Positions 8,593 through 20,002 of a stretch of 21,908 bases of DNA are shown here, piece after piece. The first letter of the stretch is position 1. Every line of letters starts with the position of its first letter. The DNA lies in the IMG/VR virus record IMGVR_UViG_3300025168_000771, positions 1 through 21,908 of that record; one strand, 5' to 3'. The notes under the pieces were generated by a model. The model made no database searches. It saw only the letters and a program-made list of their open reading frames with translations, and was not told where the DNA came from. The position numbers and the translations under genes are program-made. The stretch comes from a virus.

Positions 8593-9057
8593 TTATCCTA
8601 TCATTCCAGCAGTTGAAGCAGCACCAAGCAAGGTAGAAGCTGCTCCAAGCCTTGATCCATATTTAGCATACTTGCCACGTTGTATAGAGGCTGCACCTTG
8701 AAATCGTGAACGGCCAGCTTGATTTTGTAAATTAGCTTTTTCTATGTTTGCATTGTATTGAATTAAATTTTCATCTATTTCAAATTGTTCTTGGTTTTGT
8801 TCTAATATTTCTAATACAGTTCCTGATCCAAGATCGACACCACCTCCAGCAAAACCAACTCGGACATCACCTTGGACACCTTCAAATTGATCTCTCAATC
8901 TTGTTTTTTCTAATTGTGCTTTTTGCTGTACGACAATGGCCTCATTTTCTGCATTAACTGCATCCATTTCATAAAGCTGTGCATTGTAGTTTGCTACTCG
9001 TTGTGCTTGTCTCCCAGCTTGTATCTGAGAAAATGCCATCACTGTTGCTGCTGCCAT
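8593..9057 (-). CDS. Internal virion protein, gp14-like
   Basis: 154 aa (T7 gp14 is 196 aa). The N-terminus (MAAATVMAFSQIQAGRQAQR) is followed by a long Ala/Gln/Glu helix with NYNAQLYEMDAVNAENEA, then LRDQFEGVQGDVRVGFAGGGVDLGSGTVLEIL, and a C-terminal helix plus a Gly/Ala tail (LGAASTLLGAASTAGMIG) able to enter a membrane. The A-x-x-NA-x-x-Y start and the central small-residue turn (GVDLGSG) are typical of T7-type gp14 proteins. In T7, gp14 forms the outer-membrane pore for ejection. It ends with codons ATA GGA TAA; that AGGA also acts as the ribosome site of the next gene, 3 bases on. Confidence 0.8.
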   Translation of the reverse strand: MAAATVMAFSQIQAGRQAQRVANYNAQLYEMDAVNAENEAIVVQQKAQLEKTRLRDQFEGVQGDVRVGFAGGGVDLGSGTVLEILEQNQEQFEIDENLIQYNANIEKANLQNQAGRSRFQGAASIQRGKYAKYGSRLGAASTLLGAASTAGMIG

Positions 9058-9058
9058 G

Positions 9059-9490
9059 TTATTTAATCCTTGCTACCATGATGTAATCTTTGCCATCTGG
9101 TCCATATTTTTTCATTACACCTTCTGATGTCATGTTAAACCATTTAGCAAATCGTAGTCCGTGAGTAAAATCAGATCGAACTACTGCCTGGACACGATGA
9201 TAATTACGTTTTGTTATTGTTTCTTCAAATTTTTCTTTTATGTTTTTCAGCATAAAAAATTTATGTTTGTTTGAACCTTTTTTCATAATAATCCAAACGT
9301 CAGCAACACCTTCCCATATAGGGTTGATGCCACCACAAACGATTGGTTGATCATTATGAAAACCTGTCCATGCATCTTTTGTTTCAAGTGCATCTGTTGG
9401 ATAATCTACTGATGAATTTTCAAATTCACCAATTGAAATAATTTTATCAGCATGTGCTGATTGAAATGGTTCAATTCTATAATTATGCAT
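9059..9490 (-). CDS. GNAT-fold protein, T7 gp13-like
   Basis: 143 aa from ATG 9490. A TTG three bases upstream would add one residue, but the ATG is preferred. It overlaps the nozzle gene stop by 8 bases and ends 1 base before the gp14-like gene. The sequence has an N-terminal region ending IVCGGINPIWEGVADVWIIM (a beta-hairpin typical of acetyltransferase folds) and a C-terminus (FNMTSEGVMKKYGPDGKDYIMVARIK) that strongly resembles phage GNAT proteins. T7 gp13, at the same position, belongs to a GNAT-like family and is needed for virion assembly. The canonical acetyl-CoA loop (Q/RxxGxG/A) is not evident, so it may be a structural or assembly protein with a retained fold rather than an active enzyme. 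Confidence 0.7.
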   Translation of the reverse strand: MHNYRIEPFQSAHADKIISIGEFENSSVDYPTDALETKDAWTGFHNDQPIVCGGINPIWEGVADVWIIMKKGSNKHKFFMLKNIKEKFEETITKRNYHRVQAVVRSDFTHGLRFAKWFNMTSEGVMKKYGPDGKDYIMVARIK

Positions 9491-12400
9491 CAAATGTATT
9501 TAGTCTTGGAAACAATGCTACTAAGTTCAATGGTAATGGTTGATCTTGCACGACAACCACATGTCCATCTTTTTCATAATCACCTCTAAACTCAACATCC
9601 TTATCACCCGTAAACAATGGGATAGGAGATGAGATTGGTAGTGATGAATTACGAAATGGTATTGTTTCTAAGTTTTTTAAATCTGGGCCTACTTTACATC
9701 CAAGTGAATCATTTAATCTAACTGTTACACCATGAATACGTTTTATTTTTCCTTGAGCTGTGCCATCATCTGCACCTGATTCTATTCTCATGGTTTGCAA
9801 TACAGACTTATAATTAAATCCTACATGCACTTTTTCTGCTAAATTGTTTAGTGTAATTCCACTAGATGATACTGTTTCATTTGTATGTGTTGCACCATCT
9901 GCCAATACATTAACTAATGCACCTTCTAAATGATGTAATCCAGTTATAGATGTTGTCTTACCACCAGAATACGTTAATCCACTGTCAACATAAAATGCAT
10001 CTTCTTGACTGTTTCCATAATCAAACGGTGTCATAAATTCAACATAATTAACAGTTGCACCATTTACATATCGTTCAACAATCATATACAACTCATCTTC
10101 TGCATTATCAGTTGGTATAGTTGCAATGGTTTTTACTTTTGCGTTAGTTAACCATTTATGAGTTGTTGATGTCGTACTGACTGTTCCTACGGCAACATAG
10201 TTAGTATTAATATAATTTAATCCTGATTTTTTAAAATCTTCAAAATCATATTGATGAATTAATTTAAAAGAATTACCATCAACTGTTATTGTCATGTATG
10301 GATTTTCTATTTCTAATCCAGTAAATTTATCAGCAATCAATTCTGCTGTATAAGATATTATATCTCCATCACCAAAACCATGTGCAGCTGACCAAAACGT
10401 GCTTGTTCTTACGTTTACTTCTTTATATAAATAATGTGTTACAGATTTACCTGAAACAACTGATAATAAATCAACAGCAGTACCAGCAGTTGCATTTGCT
10501 TCTGTTGTTGCAAATTGGATCACATTGGAATCAACAGCAATAATATAATAAAACAGATCTTGTCTTAATCCACCAATAGGATCTGAGTCTGCATAATAAC
10601 TAACAACATCACCCGTAGATAAACCATGAGATGCTTTTGTTATTGCATTGTCACCTACACTTACTGTTGAAGTAGAAACTGTTAAAGGTATTTTTTTAGT
10701 TACTGATTGTTTACCAGTATCAGCCATGCCTCCTAAAATATGTCTATGCCAGGCTATAACATTTTCAGTTCGTTGATATGTTAATCCAGCTAACACACCA
10801 TCAGTTCGTACTACCCACAATATAGATGCTGGCTCTTGTTGGTAAGCAAAGTCAGTAACCAGGCTATCAGTTATGTGATCGGCTAATACCGTAAGATCAG
10901 GTGCAATGTAATTATCACTATCATAGTTATATGTTAGTTCTCGTATCTTACGTTTGGCACGGTGTATAAACAACACAAGGTTGCCAACTGTAATAGCATC
11001 TTTGTTGGCACTGCCGTATGCAGATTGTTTACGAATATTAATGTTAGTAGGGGATAGTCCATTAACACTATCTGATCCTGTTACTAAAAATTCTGCACCC
11101 GTTGTACCAATTAATAATGATCGTGATGCAGCTAAATAACGTATGGCATTAACTTTGTTACTAGCAATGGTAAAGTTCATTGCATCATCTGGATCTGTGC
11201 CTTCTGTAAAGTTTTCGTAATCACCAGACTGTGAAAACCATATTGTCTGTGGATTGTTATTCGTGTTTGCAAAGACCAATCGTTGTTCAAAAAATGACAC
11301 ACACGATGGATAGTTGTTTGTGCCTAAGTTTAATACTGGGTTGTTTAGTTTTGTAACTGTACCTGTTGATCCACTAAATGAACTATAACTTGATGTGTCA
11401 ATGTCTGTACCATCTTTATCTTGCAATACAAAATGTTGATCTGGCCCAGTTAATGTACCTGAAACAAATGTTGTGTAATCAGTTGTATCAATATTAATAC
11501 CATTGCCGTTTTGCAATTGAAATGTAGTTGTAGATGGCACTGTTCCAACTTTAAATGAATTACCATTTAATTGTGTCATACCAACAACATCTGTAATATC
11601 AAAACTATCACCAGCTATCAATCCATGAGCTGCTGATGTAGTTACTACTCCAGGGTTAGCTTTAGTAATTCCACTAATTGTAATTTTATTTTTTAACTCT
11701 CCTACTTTATGAACAACACCATTTATGTTTGTCATACCTCCAATACCAGTAAAAGTTATAAAATCACCTTTGACTAAACCATTATTTAATATTGTAGATA
11801 CAACTCCAGGATTAGCTTGTGTGATAGCTGATACAATAAAATCAGTTCCAGTTGTTAATGTTGGTGTTGAAAATGTCCATGAAGTATGGGCAGTTCTTGA
11901 TAGTTTACGAATAGCATACGATGGATGTGTGATATACATAACATCGGCTGATTGTGCAAATTTAAGATCAGGCAACACACTAAATGGATAAGGTGATGTT
12001 ATTTGATAAATTGGATAAACTACACCTCCTGATGCATACGTTGTTAATGATGTTGTATTAAAATTAGTTCCGTCAGTATTTAATAGTTGAAATGTAGTTG
12101 ATGATCCAACTGTGCCAACCCTAAATTGTCGGCCATTTAATTCTGTCATGCCAACTATGCCATCTAATATAACATAGTCACCAGCTGTTAGTCCGTGAGT
12201 AGCTGATGTCACTACACCTGGATTGGCTTTGGTAATAGCTGATATGTTTAAACCAGTTTTTGTAATGATGCCGTTGTCTTTAAAAAAACGTACATACTCA
12301 TCACCAAACTCAAGCATATATGTTTGTGTCGTTGAAAACTCAAACGGTATAAGTCTGTGAGCTGTACCATTAGTTCCACGTTTGGCTTCGGCAATAAACT

Positions 12401-12560
12401 TTGTGCCTGGTCGTCTTGATGCTACTCCGTGAGGATAGACAATCATATTCTCAATTGTCTTACATCCTACTTTGTACTTTTCTAAATCAATTCGACCATC
12501 CAAATCTTTAGACAGTTCTCCACCAGTAAAACTGGTGTAAGGGTAGGCAGATCTAGCCAT
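9483..12560 (-). CDS. Tail nozzle (tail tubular protein B, gp12-like) with embedded FCCH-type repeats
   Basis: 1025 aa, longer than T7 gp12 (794 aa). The N-terminus (MARSAYPYTSFTGGELSKDL, then KYKVGCKTIENMIVYPHGVASRRPGTKFI) is the conserved start of podovirus nozzle proteins. The core has SVLPDLKFAQSADVMYITHP, NNPVLNLGTNNYPSCVSFFEQRLVFANTNNNPQTIWFSQSGDYENF, and later FYVDSGLTYSGG. Inserted are beta repeats resembling the FCCH-type domain: ITKANPGVV..HGL.AGD..........GMT.LNG..F.VGTV..TTFQL, complete at residues about 106-178 and 296-368, a divided copy at 244-290 plus 373-400, and weaker ones near 645-715 and 725-800. The start shares TAATG with the adaptor gene. The protein forms the end of the tail through which DNA leaves; the repeats probably decorate its outer surface. 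Confidence 0.88.
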   Translation of the reverse strand: MARSAYPYTSFTGGELSKDLDGRIDLEKYKVGCKTIENMIVYPHGVASRRPGTKFIAEAKRGTNGTAHRLIPFEFSTTQTYMLEFGDEYVRFFKDNGIITKTGLNISAITKANPGVVTSATHGLTAGDYVILDGIVGMTELNGRQFRVGTVGSSTTFQLLNTDGTNFNTTSLTTYASGGVVYPIYQITSPYPFSVLPDLKFAQSADVMYITHPSYAIRKLSRTAHTSWTFSTPTLTTGTDFIVSAITQANPGVVSTILNNGLVKGDFITFTGIGGMTNINGVVHKVGELKNKITISGITKANPGVVTTSAAHGLIAGDSFDITDVVGMTQLNGNSFKVGTVPSTTTFQLQNGNGINIDTTDYTTFVSGTLTGPDQHFVLQDKDGTDIDTSSYSSFSGSTGTVTKLNNPVLNLGTNNYPSCVSFFEQRLVFANTNNNPQTIWFSQSGDYENFTEGTDPDDAMNFTIASNKVNAIRYLAASRSLLIGTTGAEFLVTGSDSVNGLSPTNINIRKQSAYGSANKDAITVGNLVLFIHRAKRKIRELTYNYDSDNYIAPDLTVLADHITDSLVTDFAYQQEPASILWVVRTDGVLAGLTYQRTENVIAWHRHILGGMADTGKQSVTKKIPLTVSTSTVSVGDNAITKASHGLSTGDVVSYYADSDPIGGLRQDLFYYIIAVDSNVIQFATTEANATAGTAVDLLSVVSGKSVTHYLYKEVNVRTSTFWSAAHGFGDGDIISYTAELIADKFTGLEIENPYMTITVDGNSFKLIHQYDFEDFKKSGLNYINTNYVAVGTVSTTSTTHKWLTNAKVKTIATIPTDNAEDELYMIVERYVNGATVNYVEFMTPFDYGNSQEDAFYVDSGLTYSGGKTTSITGLHHLEGALVNVLADGATHTNETVSSSGITLNNLAEKVHVGFNYKSVLQTMRIESGADDGTAQGKIKRIHGVTVRLNDSLGCKVGPDLKNLETIPFRNSSLPISSPIPLFTGDKDVEFRGDYEKDGHVVVVQDQPLPLNLVALFPRLNTFDA
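11361..12245 (-). repeat. FCCH-like beta-repeat cluster within the nozzle gene
   Basis: The stretch encodes three copies of a roughly 70-residue repeat: copy 1 about 12245-12027, copy 2 split between about 11831-11690 and 11444-11361, and copy 3 about 11675-11457. Shared residues are ITKANPGVV, a THGL or AHGL turn, GMT.LNG, VGTV and TTFQL. DNA identity between copies is only moderate, so the duplication is not recent. Confidence 0.75.
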
Positions 12561-15926: not shown

Positions 15927-17525
15927 TTATTGTTGTTCTTCAACAGCTTTGAGCATCGGTGCAGCAGATCCAGCTGCTTGTGCTGCTTCAACTGCTTGTT
16001 GTTGCTCCATAGCTTGTTGTTGTTGTTCTTGTCGTTGTTGTCTTACTTGAGCTACTTCAGCATCAGATTTAATAATCCGTGCTGGTAAACCCAACATTTT
16101 TTGGACATACTTAACTAACCCATCTGAGTCTAAGTAATCCAAAACTGGTGCAAATTGAGACATTGATCCAAAGATTTCTATGCCACGCATTACAGAATTT
16201 AAGTCTCCTGATTTTTGTGCTTTGGCAAGTGGACTAACGTATTCAATGTCTATTGTTTGATTGATTAATATATCGGGCATTGGTCTAAACACATCAGCTC
16301 TCATTAAAATATTGAACACTCGTTCAATAAGGGGCTGTAATAGTTCTGATTGCAATCGACCTAAGACTGGGCCTAGTAATCTCATTTTTTCTTCGTTACG
16401 TTGTAATACTTCTGTTGCTGTCATTTGACCACCTTGAGATAACAACAACTGATCTACATAAAATGTTTTTTGTATTGCAAGTTGTCTGTCTTGGATCATG
16501 TTTACAGTAACTGGATTGTTAGCTCCAATCTGTAATGGCTCTATACGATCTCTTGATCCTGAACGGTAGAAGTTTAAACCACCTGGCACTGTCCTGACTG
16601 GTAACATAAAACCGTCATCAGGAACCATAAGGGGAGGATCTATTTGTTTCTGTGCAGCTTTGATTGTTACTTCAGACATTTTGTTTAACATCTTAACGTC
16701 AGGGAGTGCATTCATGGATGGGGATCTTCCATAAATTTCATAACTTGCTTTTAGATAACGTGGCACAACGTATGGAAACTCTTTGAAACCACCTTCGTTA
16801 ATCATGTGAACATCATCAGGATCTACATAACATGACTTAAATGGCATGTTAGCTGCATCTTCTTTTGATGCATCATAAGTATCTCGTGGCATAACCACAT
16901 GCAAAATGTTTACATCTGCATCTAAATCTTTTTTGTATTTGTTAAATATACCTGGCCCAACTGCTTCACCAAATAATTCAAATGCTGATCGTGCATTCAT
17001 TGTGAAATGTCTAAACACTGTGTCAACTTCACCTTTTGCATTTTCAGAAATAAATATTTCTTTAACGTGCCTAGTGTTAAAACGTATTAGATTTTTTTCG
17101 TCTGTTGATACAAACATAGCTGACGTACCAAAGGATATTAAATCTTGGTATAGCTCTTGGATTTCTTGTTGAAAGTTTGAACGGTTAAAAGCAACATACA
17201 TATCCTCAGTTACTGAGTCTAGCCATTCTCTAGCCTCGTCATCTTCAGATAGAGCAAGATCCTTGTAGGCTAATGTAAACCATGGAGTAGCTGAGTTAGT
17301 CAACATACCGTGCAGACTAGAACTCAATAGTTCTAATGCATGAATAGCTGTACCATCAAATATAACCTCAGTTCTTTTATCACCACGAGTACGTTGTGTT
17401 GTGATGTCAGCTTTACGAGGCAACATGTAATCAGCTATTTCTTGCCAATGGCTTTCCCATGTTGACCGATTTGTTCTTAATGAAGCAAAACGGTTTACTA
17501 GCATTTCTGCGTTTTTGTTTTTCAT
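15927..17525 (-). CDS. Portal (head-tail connector) protein
   Basis: 532 aa, matching T7 gp8 (536 aa). Characteristic blocks: RFASLRTNRSTWESHWQEIADYMLPRK (residues about 12-38), VIFDGTAIHALELLSSSLHGMLTNSATPWFTL (about 54-84), LISFGTSAMFV, RFNTRHVKEIFISENAKGEVDTVFR, DRQLAIQKTFYVDQL, MTATEVLQRNEEKMRLLGPVLGRLQSELLQPLIERVF and YVSPLAKAQK. The last roughly 40 residues are Gln/Ala-rich. Twelve copies form the channel at the capsid vertex through which terminase drives DNA. The start is coupled to the preceding 68-aa gene (TAA, one base, ATG) with no separate ribosome site. Confidence 0.95.
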   Translation of the reverse strand: MKNKNAEMLVNRFASLRTNRSTWESHWQEIADYMLPRKADITTQRTRGDKRTEVIFDGTAIHALELLSSSLHGMLTNSATPWFTLAYKDLALSEDDEAREWLDSVTEDMYVAFNRSNFQQEIQELYQDLISFGTSAMFVSTDEKNLIRFNTRHVKEIFISENAKGEVDTVFRHFTMNARSAFELFGEAVGPGIFNKYKKDLDADVNILHVVMPRDTYDASKEDAANMPFKSCYVDPDDVHMINEGGFKEFPYVVPRYLKASYEIYGRSPSMNALPDVKMLNKMSEVTIKAAQKQIDPPLMVPDDGFMLPVRTVPGGLNFYRSGSRDRIEPLQIGANNPVTVNMIQDRQLAIQKTFYVDQLLLSQGGQMTATEVLQRNEEKMRLLGPVLGRLQSELLQPLIERVFNILMRADVFRPMPDILINQTIDIEYVSPLAKAQKSGDLNSVMRGIEIFGSMSQFAPVLDYLDSDGLVKYVQKMLGLPARIIKSDAEVAQVRQQRQEQQQQAMEQQQAVEAAQAAGSAAPMLKAVEEQQ

Positions 17526-17526
17526 A

Positions 17527-17733
17527 TTAGCTTAAAAGTGTGGGTTTGTATGTTGGTGCGTCACCACCAAGGCCCATTGATGTTGTTTCAATCAACGAAG
17601 ATTGTCCTGGCTTTTTCTTTTTCTTAGCAGCCTGGACATCTTGTGCCATGTCTTGAGTTTTAGTCGTTTGTAAGTCTTTTACTTTAGTCATTACATTTGT
17701 TGATGGTGCACGACCTCCGATTATTCCACTCAT
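17527..17733 (-). CDS. 68-aa small phage protein, ILT/KPTLL type, paralogue of the 66-aa gene
   Basis: Starts MSGIIGGRAPSTNV, has a Lys block (AAKKKKKPGQ), then SSLIETTSMGLGG and ends TYKPTLLS. The order (MS.I start, basic run, S-L-I-x-T, G-L turn, YKP[ST]LL end) matches the 66-aa protein at 18525-18725, so the two look like diverged duplicates. Similar small proteins ending KTLLG or KPTLL, with an ILT block, occur before portal genes in many podoviruses from general knowledge; their function is not established. AAGGAGAA lies upstream of ATG 17733. The stop is one base before the portal start. Confidence 0.75.
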   Translation of the reverse strand: MSGIIGGRAPSTNVMTKVKDLQTTKTQDMAQDVQAAKKKKKPGQSSLIETTSMGLGGDAPTYKPTLLS

Positions 17734-17747
17734 AGTATTCTCCTTAA

Positions 17748-18002
17748 TTATGCTTGTTTATTGTTGTTTGCAAAGTTTCGTGCAGCAGCAACACTACCGA
17801 AACCCCATTTTTTTAATGCCAATGCTTTTCGTGTAGGACTGCCATCTGGGTTTTTCATAGCCCCTTTCATTCCAGCAAACCGTGCTGCAAATGAAACACG
17901 TCTAGGGCTTTGTCCTTGTTTGATTGGAGCCTTAACTCCAAAATGTTTTCGACCAGCATCATTTAATCCACCAGTAGGACTCTGGTGTTTTTTCAGAGCC
18001 AT
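17748..18002 (-). CDS. 84-aa basic phage protein, SPTGGLNDAGR type
   Basis: The protein begins MALKKHQSPTGGLNDAGRKH, continues SPRRVSFAARFAGMKGAMKNPDGSPTRKALALKKWGF and is strongly basic. I recognise the pattern SP.GGLN..GR ... R..SFCARM.GM.G.MK...G.PTRKALALRKW as a widespread small protein of phages and marine metagenomes with no assigned function. Here the usual Cys is replaced (SFAAR). It may bind DNA or the connector; that is inference. The gene follows the 51-aa gene with one base between stop and ATG and AGGAG just upstream. It is followed by a good AAGGAG site for the next gene. Confidence 0.8.
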   Translation of the reverse strand: MALKKHQSPTGGLNDAGRKHFGVKAPIKQGQSPRRVSFAARFAGMKGAMKNPDGSPTRKALALKKWGFGSVAAARNFANNNKQA

Positions 18003-18003
18003 A

Positions 18004-18159
18004 TTATGCTCCTACTTTTTTTTGTGCAATTTTATGTGCAGATGTAAATGTTTTGCCTTCAAGCATTTTCTTTTCCATCAATGACATGTGTTTTTTTGTA
18101 TGATGGACAGAGTGCTTTTTAAGAGTCTGTACTTGTCTTTTAGTTAACTCTTTAGCCAT
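18004..18159 (-). CDS. 51-aa basic His/Lys-rich protein
   Basis: Read directly from the strand: ATG 18159 to TAA 18004-18006. The peptide starts MAKELTKRQVQTLKKHSVHH, continues TKKHMSLMEKKMLEGKTFTS and ends AHKIAQKKVGA. The LKKHS.HH..KHM..M...M..GKTFT.AH..A.KKVG layout is one I have seen in other phage small proteins, with no known role. It is helical and strongly positive. It begins 2 bases after the 12-codon frame and its last codons (GTA GGA GCA) supply the AGGAG ribosome site of the 84-aa gene. Preserved phase and spacing with its neighbours make it very likely coding. Confidence 0.75.
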   Translation of the reverse strand: MAKELTKRQVQTLKKHSVHHTKKHMSLMEKKMLEGKTFTSAHKIAQKKVGA

Positions 18160-18161
18160 TT

Positions 18162-18200
18162 TTATTTACCGTATGGTTTTTTCTTTTTCTTTTTAATCAT
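18162..18200 (-). CDS. 12-aa lysine peptide (MIKKKKKKPYGK)
   Basis: ATG 18200, TAA 18162-18164, with a strong AAGGAGA ribosome site about 7 bases upstream placed in the gap after the previous gene. Seven of twelve residues are Lys. It sits between two accepted small genes, with 10 bases before it and 2 after, so the interval holds only this frame and its ribosome site. It may be a real basic micropeptide, or a leader that feeds ribosomes to the 51-aa gene, which has no ribosome site of its own. Confidence 0.5.
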   Translation of the reverse strand: MIKKKKKKPYGK

Positions 18201-18210
18201 GGTGTTCTCC

Positions 18211-18339
18211 TTATGATAGTAAAGTTGGTCTTTTTTTTACTTTTGGTTTTTTTCTTAATAGTACAAAGTCTTGTGCATCTATTTTTTTATTATTATTTGC
18301 ATCAAGTTTTTTTTGATTGCCTTTTAATTGTTTAGTCAT
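18211..18339 (-). CDS. 42-aa basic protein ending RPTLLS
   Basis: Read directly: ATG 18339 to TAA 18211-18213. It begins MTKQLKGNQKKLDANNNKK, continues IDAQDFVLLRKKPKVKKRP and ends TLLS. Highly basic in its last third. The final RPTLLS matches the KPTLLS and KPSLLG ends of the 68- and 66-aa proteins encoded nearby. AGGA of the preceding GGA TAA codons serves as its ribosome site, about 7 bases before the ATG. No known function. Confidence 0.7.
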   Translation of the reverse strand: MTKQLKGNQKKLDANNNKKIDAQDFVLLRKKPKVKKRPTLLS

Positions 18340-18343
18340 GCTA

Positions 18344-18514
18344 TTATCCTAATAAAGTTTTCTTTGGTTTCTTTGCTGTCTTTTCAGATTGTGCAAAGTT
18401 TTTAGCAGTTGGTGCTCCTGGTGATCCTACTTTTCTCATTTTCTCACCTGAGCCACCTTTGATTCTTTTGCGTTTTGCATGAATATTTGCGTATAGTCCT
18501 GGTTTAGTAGCCAT
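18344..18514 (-). CDS. 56-aa protein, YANIHAKRKRIKGGSGEKMR type
   Basis: Read directly: ATG 18514 to TAA 18344-18346. It begins MATKPGLYANIHAKRKRIKG, continues GSGEKMRKVGSPGAPTAKNF and ends KKPKKTLLG. The GLYANIHAKR.RI..GSGEKMRK.GS.GAPTA.. pattern is one I recognise from many phage and metagenome small proteins of unknown role. The C-terminal KKTLLG tail is shared in form with its neighbours. AGGA, located in the last codons of the 66-aa gene, lies upstream of its ATG. Its own GGA TAA end provides the next ribosome site. Confidence 0.85.
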   Translation of the reverse strand: MATKPGLYANIHAKRKRIKGGSGEKMRKVGSPGAPTAKNFAQSEKTAKKPKKTLLG

Positions 18515-18524
18515 AGTGTTGTAC

Positions 18525-18725
18525 TTATCCTAGTAATGACGGTTTATAAGAATCTTCGTCTTTGTTTTGCAATCCACTGTTTGATGTCAGTATAGTTGCT
18601 TTTTTGCCACGTCTTTTTCGTTGTGCATCAGGGTTTTCATCTGGCACAGATCCGATTGGTGTTAATGGAATAACCGTTTTTGTTGTAGTCGGCATATTCA
18701 TTTTGGGGCTTAATATTCTACTCAT
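18525..18725 (-). CDS. 66-aa small phage protein, ILT/KPSLL type, paralogue of the 68-aa gene
   Basis: It begins MSRILSPKMNMPTTT, has a basic block (AQRKRRGKK), then ATILTSNSGLQNKDEDS and ends YKPSLLG. Organisation matches the 68-aa protein at 17527-17733. It overlaps the terminase stop by ATGA, with AGGA upstream in the terminase C-terminal codons. The RGKKATILTS block plus KTLLG-like end is a known arrangement of small podovirus proteins next to terminase or portal genes, of unknown function. A role at the connector or packaging vertex would fit its location but is inference. Confidence 0.8.
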   Translation of the reverse strand: MSRILSPKMNMPTTTKTVIPLTPIGSVPDENPDAQRKRRGKKATILTSNSGLQNKDEDSYKPSLLG

Positions 18726-20002
18726 TGTATTCCTAACGGGTTGTAGTTATTGTCAGCAAATTGTTGTGGTATTTGCTCTTCGTTTTTTAATTCTTGCAAG
18801 CCAACAGCCAATGTTCTCATGCTATCTGCTGCGTGTGAACTCCAGTCATGTACGGGCTTTGCATTAAAGGTTTGCAAGGTGTCATTAAACTTACGGTGAT
18901 AGTTCCTCAAGGCATCTAACAGTTTCTTACAACTATCCATATCTATCCAGCATCTATTGAGTAACAACTGCGTATAGTGCAACCCATCCTCTATGCTCAG
19001 TTTTGGTACTATCTTAAATCGTAAACCAAGTTCGTATGCAATCTCACGTCTTGATTTTCCATTTGTAAACTCACGTTGTTCCAGGTCGTGAGGCCCATAA
19101 TGATCCTTGTAAACGTAATCTTTCTTGTTAATCACACTGATGTAGTGTGGCAGTCCTTCATTACTGTTTTCGTAATAATCTATAATTTGTATTGATCTTC
19201 CAACTTGTTGAAAAAATATAATCGTTGTTTTGTCTGATATTCCTATATCCCAGGCCGTTGATACGGGGTAGGTAGCATCATAAGGTACACGGCCTACTTG
19301 TCCTTTTTGTTCTATTTTTTCTATGACATCTCCGTATATGGCACCTTCTATTGAAGCAACCCAATCACATTCAAACTCTTGCCTGTACTTTTTTTGCCCC
19401 ATCAAATCTAGGGCTGCATCTAGTTCTTCCTGATCGACAATGCCAGTCTCAGATGCTTTAGCAATTTTTGTGTACCAGGTCTTATCTTTGAGTCCGTGCT
19501 GGTACTTAGCATAGAAATCATTGCTCATACCTTGTGGTGTTCCCACAAAGTAACAGAAACCTTTTCGGTCAGATAATGCTGGTCGAATTATTTCAGGAAA
19601 TAATCTTGGATTGACCTGTGCATACTCATCAACAATGATTCCATCATAATAATTACCCCTCAAGCTGTCTGGATTTTCAGATCCAAGAAGTGTAATTTTG
19701 GCACCCGTTGGAAACAAACAACTAAGTTCTTGTTCGTTAAACTTCGTTCCAGGTATGACACCAGCATAGTATTTTAAATAGTCAAATATAATTGACTTTG
19801 TTTGTTTATAAGTTGGGCCGATGTATGCGTACCGTGGGTTCCACATGGTGTTTGTTAAAGCACGTTTTATTAGCTCGTTTATACACAATACAGACTTGCC
19901 AGCTCGTCTATGTATAGATAGTACGGCCCATCTGTATTTAGCTAAGTTTGTGTGTATCTCTTGTTGCAGCTCTCTTGGGCTGTAAGGAATAGTTATTTCC
20001 AT
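18722..20002 (-). CDS. terL: Terminase large subunit
   Basis: 426 aa ATPase-nuclease that packages DNA. ATPase domain: Walker A-like HRRAGKS (residues 31-37), Walker B IIVDE (122-126), coupling motif VGTPQG (153-158). Nuclease domain: acidic STAWDIG (D252), a second acidic candidate in KDHYGPHD (D306), and HDWSSHAADSMR near the end (D386, D393). All expected catalytic positions are present and the length is normal for the compact terminases of podo- and siphoviruses. The start shares TAATG with the upstream 60-aa gene, so translation is coupled; the stop overlaps the 66-aa gene by ATGA. The motor docks on the portal, encoded about 1.2 kb further on. Confidence 0.96.
   Translation of the reverse strand: MEITIPYSPRELQQEIHTNLAKYRWAVLSIHRRAGKSVLCINELIKRALTNTMWNPRYAYIGPTYKQTKSIIFDYLKYYAGVIPGTKFNEQELSCLFPTGAKITLLGSENPDSLRGNYYDGIIVDEYAQVNPRLFPEIIRPALSDRKGFCYFVGTPQGMSNDFYAKYQHGLKDKTWYTKIAKASETGIVDQEELDAALDLMGQKKYRQEFECDWVASIEGAIYGDVIEKIEQKGQVGRVPYDATYPVSTAWDIGISDKTTIIFFQQVGRSIQIIDYYENSNEGLPHYISVINKKDYVYKDHYGPHDLEQREFTNGKSRREIAYELGLRFKIVPKLSIEDGLHYTQLLLNRCWIDMDSCKKLLDALRNYHRKFNDTLQTFNAKPVHDWSSHAADSMRTLAVGLQELKNEEQIPQQFADNNYNPLGIQ

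Follow-up and report, generated by a model that had tools for sequence, protein, structure and literature searches.

Why do several small phage proteins, encoded side by side and mostly unlike each other in sequence, end with the same few residues? This question is raised by the interval between the genes for the terminase large subunit (terL) and the portal in the window, i.e., the whole 21.9 kb IMG/VR virus record that we analyzed. The structural genes of the window (terL, seven small ORFs, portal, Bbp19-like protein, scaffold, major capsid protein, adaptor and nozzle) are all located on the minus strand, and the window is related to contigs of marine viruses and to Pelagibacter phages of the HTVC010P group.

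The terminase-portal cassette

The place and the lengths of the seven ORFs (66, 56, 42, 12, 51, 84 and 68 codons) were confirmed, and four of the seven products, read off the ORFs, share the end [KRP][KP][ST]LL[GS], as the original prediction had it (Table 1). The prediction also held for kinship within the cassette: the 66- and 68-aa proteins, P1 and P6, are paralogues that both match phrog_831, whereas the bodies of the 56- and 42-aa proteins fall in other clusters. The LYANIHAKRKRI body of P2 occurs in marine podoviruses. The dockerin-like match of P3 is below the Pfam cut-off, and a homologue in locus L027 passes the Dockerin_1 cut-off. P5 matches DUF6321 with 55.4 bits (gathering cut-off 28.5), and its AlphaFold model is weak and helical (pLDDT 67). 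P4 and P5 are basic and lack the tag throughout. The 12-codon ORF MIKKKKKKPYGK is probably a tail-like remnant of the GTYGST...KKTKKPYGK gene of neighboring genomes, as judged from the comparison of sequences. Elsewhere in the window, the nozzle (tubular tail protein B; 9483-12560) contains three Pfam E1_FCCH stretches (E 2.7e-24), which are inserted repeats.

Table 1. Features of the terminase-portal interval, numbered along the window
Feature	Position	Strand	Basis
Terminase large subunit, upstream boundary	18722..20002	-	profile matches
P1, 66 aa, post-terL phrog_831 protein; Pro-rich, inner motif GKKATILTS, C-terminal tag	18525..18725	-	phrog_831 E 3.3e-6
P1 inner motif GKKATILTSNSG; family form G[RK]xSTILT[GS]xxG	18573..18608	-	alignments
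P1 C-terminal tag KPSLLG	18528..18545	-	ORF translation
P2, 56 aa, basic LYANIHAKRKRI body (phrog_16028) and tag	18344..18514	-	profile match
P2 C-terminal tag KKTLLG	18347..18364	-	ORF translation
P3, 42 aa, single dockerin/EF-hand-like loop (LDANNNKKIDAQDF) and tag	18211..18339	-	Pfam match below cut-off
P3 C-terminal tag RPTLLS	18214..18231	-	ORF translation
12-codon ORF MIKKKKKKPYGK, probable remnant of the GTYGST...KKPYGK family (cluster C4)	18162..18200	-	comparison with neighboring genomes
P4, 51 aa, phrog_31838, never tagged	18004..18159	-	profile match, clustering
P5, 84 aa, DUF6321, never tagged	17748..18002	-	Pfam E 9.6e-15, above cut-off
P6, 68 aa, pre-portal phrog_831 protein and tag; positional counterpart of T7 gp7.3	17527..17733	-	profile match
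P6 inner motif KPGQSSLIETTSMGLGG; T7 gp7.3 HMM aligns with GGKKSLSVARSSGGG in close homologues	17563..17613	-	gp7.3 HMM
P6 C-terminal tag KPTLLS	17530..17547	-	ORF translation
Portal / head-tail connector PF12236, downstream boundary	15927..17525	-	E 2e-148

Enrichment of the tag at the portal locus

We scanned 12 related records at their full length and counted ORFs ending with [STN]L[LM][GS] in the cassette and elsewhere. The tag ends 18 of the 40 cassette ORFs and none of the 577 other tiled ORFs (Fisher p = 5.6e-24), which is the enrichment among small terL-portal proteins of relatives that had been anticipated. In 300 unique cassette proteins, the same four-residue pattern occupies 52% of the C-termini, compared to 0.05% of the internal positions. 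Inside this phage group the C-terminus is kept by homologues; its absence from them had been named as the sign of coincidence. Thus, the tail is real, exceeds chance expectation and is confined to the portal locus. Among the papers listed by a full-text literature search with phage terms, none contained the string TLLG.

Proteins from 130 related loci were then clustered after trimming of the last eight residues. The phrog_831 cluster is tagged in 106 of its 115 unique proteins, and the tag is also found in the clusters ANIHAKRKRI (19/19), LDANNN (15/15), MGKMMGK (11/11), MSLYENIN (7/8), C11 (5/6), C12 (3/3) and C4 (2/9). Several clusters of the same cassettes are untagged, among them DUF6321 (0/20), P4 (0/10) and C6 (0/11). 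The bodies of the tag-bearing families C1, C3, C4, C7, C8, C11 and C12 cluster neither with each other nor with phrog_831; remote kinship of some lysine-rich clusters is possible, therefore we state the count as at least six independent bodies. It should be noted that larger untagged cassette proteins (C9, C10 and C13; 144-272 aa) often end with KLGD, KLSD or KLGL (loci L059, L060, L065, L077, L053, L055, L035 and L044), and that an internal-virion-like protein of the window (8593-9057), which ends with GAASTLLGAASTAGMIG, has STLLG roughly a dozen residues from its C-terminus, which may be due to chance.

To cover phages beyond the relatives of the window, bacterial genomes and more virus contigs were scanned by portal alignment, and 147 usable loci with homologous portals were obtained. 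The strict tag was found in 139 of 499 ORFs upstream of the portal versus 0 of 790 downstream ORFs of these further loci, and a looser pattern was present upstream in 132 of the 147 loci (90%) versus 3 of 1,683 downstream ORFs. The consensus of the tag is K-K-T-L-L-G, and in prophages of many proteobacterial hosts it is tied to portal-locus genes. Three loci of other virus lineages (L320, L360 and L364) encode an extra tagged protein of 71-96 aa that lacks the inner TILTG motif of phrog_831; therefore, the spread of the tag exceeds the clade of the window. The tag is absent from some phages of this portal type, such as Alteromonas phage ZP6, where the PF12236 portal gene directly follows terL and none of the small proteins is tagged. 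As a separate observation, contig PAOW01000004.1 (L228 and L230), binned as a euryarchaeal MAG, has a pelagiphage-like portal module and is probably a mis-binned phage.

Portability of the tail and selection at the protein level

The same bodies can be found with and without the tail. The P2 body is untagged in S-RIP1, CRP-4, CRP-113, P-SCSP1o and Limnohabitans DC33, and in the three of these with annotated structural genes (CRP-113, P-SCSP1o and DC33) the P2-type gene is located downstream of the portal, outside the terL-portal interval. The MSLYENIN body ends with GFPKKKK in HTVC200P, where it is encoded between the scaffold and capsid genes, versus GFPKKKKKTLLG in the present loci; in Baldr this body is encoded just before the portal, yet it ends with KKKKYVLAGKY and is untagged. 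Cluster C4 occurs in close relatives both with the tag (KKKTLMG) and without it (KKPYGK). The last four residues have 42 distinct encodings among 174 genes. Because homologues of P2 and of the MSLYENIN protein are untagged elsewhere and synonymous codons vary, we conclude that the tail is portable between unrelated bodies and is under selection as protein.

If the tags had been spread by recent copying, an excess of synonymous identity within a genome would be expected. The synonymous-site identity between tags of different families is 46% in the same genome versus 49% in different genomes; therefore, recent copying is not the cause. An extremely improbable explanation is that the tail originates at the nucleic-acid level, with the gene end being kept either for a ribosome-binding site that serves the next gene or as a recombination seam. 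The LLG-stop end is indeed often encoded by CTAGGATAA, which places AGGA at Shine-Dalgarno distance, and GGA is the last codon in 71 of 96 genes with the next start 3-7 nt away versus 16 of 41 otherwise. However, the tag persists with GGT, GGG, GGC or AGC codons and also where the next gene is distant, T-L-L is kept despite many codons, and tightly packed genes elsewhere are untagged (the 0/577 above), so that overlap with a ribosome-binding site accounts for codon choice alone. Codon diversity and the synonymous-identity test rule out such overlap and copying of tag DNA as sole causes.

We also considered whether the tags of one genome evolve in concert. This is hinted at by L046/L169, where every recognized tag ends with S or T and not G (TLMS, SLLS, TLIT, TILT and TILS), and is contradicted by L047, where the tags are mixed. 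A search of the lineages for co-variation between the tag and a partner gave no clean case.

The flanking phrog_831 proteins and T7 gp6.7/gp7.3

P1 aligns through residues 2-66 to positions 2-69 of the 70 in phrog_831 (E 3.3e-6), and P6 aligns, more weakly, through residues 19-67 to positions 16-68 of 70 (E 0.0073). This family without assigned function includes epsilon15 gp3 and both small proteins of HTVC010P (AGE60273 and AGE60274). Its alignments contain two conserved elements, the inner G[RK]xSTILT[GS]xxG and the terminal K[ST]LLG, which are common with epsilon15 gp3; the inner motif of P6 is diverged (GQSSLIETTS). Bbp22 of BPP-1 has both elements, with a weak phrog_831 profile match of its own (E 0.0086), and goes unmentioned in the BPP-1 virion paper. 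AlphaFold predicts a disordered chain for the P1 family (pTM 0.14), and no relative was found in the PDB by sequence, whether the query was P5, P6, a homologue of P2, epsilon15 gp3 or the profile of the family.

The position of the flanking pair recalls phage T7, where genes 6.7 and 7.3 are located directly upstream of the portal gene; the P6 gene, like gene 7.3, lies shortly upstream of its PF12236 portal gene. In T7, loop I of gp6.7 encircles the portal barrel, gp7.3 is attached to nozzle proteins through its C-terminal loop, its K84/K85 contact DNA, and both gp6.7 and gp7.3 are ejected (PMC11784390). The gp7.3 family, phrog_1320, matches three pre-portal homologues collinearly (L030, E 0.0017; L025, 0.022; L044, 0.032), and among 2,920 ORFs the top matches of the gp7.3 HMM are mostly pre-portal proteins. 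The pre-portal proteins of relatives of the window have a gp7.3-like build, with a MGRKIKKAIKKV start and GRKSLINTSSTGLGG near the end. P6 itself gave no phrog_1320 match in the profile search, and the profile-profile comparison with gp7.3 (hhalign) reached 39% on 14 N-terminal columns only. Since profile-profile comparison does not confirm the relationship, we treat it as functional analogy with possible remote kinship and not as family membership; the gp7.3 link of the pre-portal phrog_831 proteins is only suggestive. For the post-terL proteins, direct homology to gp6.7 is not supported: they have no match to phrog_1391, the gp6.7 family, and hhalign gave 12%. It should be noted that in T7-like phages (L193-L223) gp6.7 and gp7.3 share GGKKSL(K/S)V, i.e., two small pre-portal proteins have a common peptide there as well.

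The probable docking site

The original prediction that a terminal tag shared by unrelated bodies reflects one docking partner is supported by confinement to the locus, the kept C-terminus, untagged bodies elsewhere and varied codons. It had further proposed loading into the procapsid or onto the portal/terminase. The portal family is common to the window, HTVC010P, epsilon15 and BPP-1, and profiles of the adaptor (phrog_394), nozzle (phrog_376) and Bbp19-like protein (phrog_528) are shared by the window, epsilon15 and BPP-1. Conversely, the major-capsid families of tag-bearing phages differ (phrog_3437 versus phrog_212). This distribution favors the portal/tail vertex, or the scaffold, over the capsid shell; the retention of the tag across different capsid families makes the shell itself an improbable receptor. 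The original interpretation is thus partly supported, namely for the shared docking partner, and loading into the procapsid would be one possibility.

We regard it as unlikely that the receptor of the tag is instead the scaffold/prohead protease or the interior of the capsid, and not the portal, with procapsid cargo being loaded in the manner of the T4 capsid-targeting sequence (CTS). T4 internal proteins do show this pattern, a hypervariable basic cargo that has one peptide in common (PMC9026906), and the scaffold/protease families phrog_3742 and phrog_458 cross-match between tag-bearing phages, so a scaffold partner would be shared too. However, the T4 CTS is N-terminal and cleaved, the capsid families are not shared, and the carriers hug terL and the portal, as T7 gp6.7 and gp7.3 do. 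Binding to the terminase large subunit, with carriers that regulate packaging without entering the virion, is improbable: tagged genes do directly follow terL, and TerL of all carriers belongs to the broad phrog_2 group, but TerL subfamilies of the window, epsilon15 and BPP-1 differ widely, the T7 counterparts are virion proteins, and in many phages, including epsilon15 and BPP-1, the tagged gene adjoins the portal, with other genes or non-coding DNA between it and terL.

The tag might also serve as a degradation or processing signal for a host or phage protease, given that, after infection by T7, cellular proteases degrade both gp6.7 and gp7.3 (PMC11784390). This seems very improbable, because the tag is conserved together with genes of the portal locus in prophages of numerous proteobacteria. 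Moreover, -LLG is not known to resemble the C-terminal signals of ClpXP or Tsp.

The reading toward which we lean, if only somewhat, is that [KP][ST]L[LM][GS] is a docking peptide for a conserved portal/tail-channel component of phages with PF12236 portals, reused for accessory basic proteins. The tag would be recognized by this component during assembly. Its primary carriers would be the two flanking phrog_831 proteins, small, probably disordered and in a gp6.7/gp7.3-like structural role, one encoded beside terL and the other immediately before the portal gene. In this pelagiphage clade, at least six mutually unrelated small proteins, mostly rich in Lys/Arg and with genes located between those of this pair, would have acquired the tail; by analogy with the T4 CTS, these may use the same dock, be present in the virion and probably leave with the DNA. 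For a broader version we would claim slightly less than an even chance: that K-K-T-L-L-G is a near-universal portal/tail-channel address peptide of PF12236-portal phages and, in some lineages, a general cargo tag of small basic proteins delivered before the DNA. If this is true, a peptide of four to six residues can be used to predict the unannotated phage genes whose products travel in the virion, and an uncharacterized protein family gains a testable place in the particle. It would also open a way into the small proteins that podoviruses eject, which are poorly understood, and into a very abundant group of ocean viruses, and possibly provide a protein-delivery tag.

Comparison with known systems

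P1 and P6 have the inner motif, the C-terminal tag and the place before the portal gene in common with epsilon15 gp3 and the HTVC010P proteins. Epsilon15 and BPP-1 have one tagged gene per genome, whereas the window has two paralogues around further tagged, non-homologous proteins.

With T7 gp7.3 and gp6.7, the carriers share the place upstream of the portal, the size and the basic, low-complexity composition. The MGKKxKKAxKK start and GKKSLSVARSSGGG loop of gp7.3 resemble the pre-portal homologues, and in the post-terL family, the FKPKIxMP start is similar to MCFSPKIKTPK at the start of gp6.7. However, gp7.3 stops where the inner motif stops and has no TLLG tail; the similarity covers the inner motif and not the terminal tag, therefore T7 is no direct template for the tag. 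Such motifs were not seen on further small T7 proteins in a search that was not exhaustive.

The T4 CTS (IPI-III, Alt) is likewise a short shared peptide on variable basic bodies, with loading of accessory proteins as the probable common function. It is N-terminal, comprises ~10 residues, acts on the core of the scaffold and is cleaved off by the gp21 protease, whereas the present tag has 4-6 residues, is located at the extreme C-terminus in all carriers, so that the N-terminal placement of T4 is not found, and is tied to the portal locus. In encapsulin cargo-loading, a C-terminal peptide recruits unrelated cargo to an HK97-fold assembly. The encapsulin peptide thus resembles the present tag in its C-terminal location and unrelated cargo, and differs from it in sequence; the present tag, moreover, persists through a change of the capsid family.
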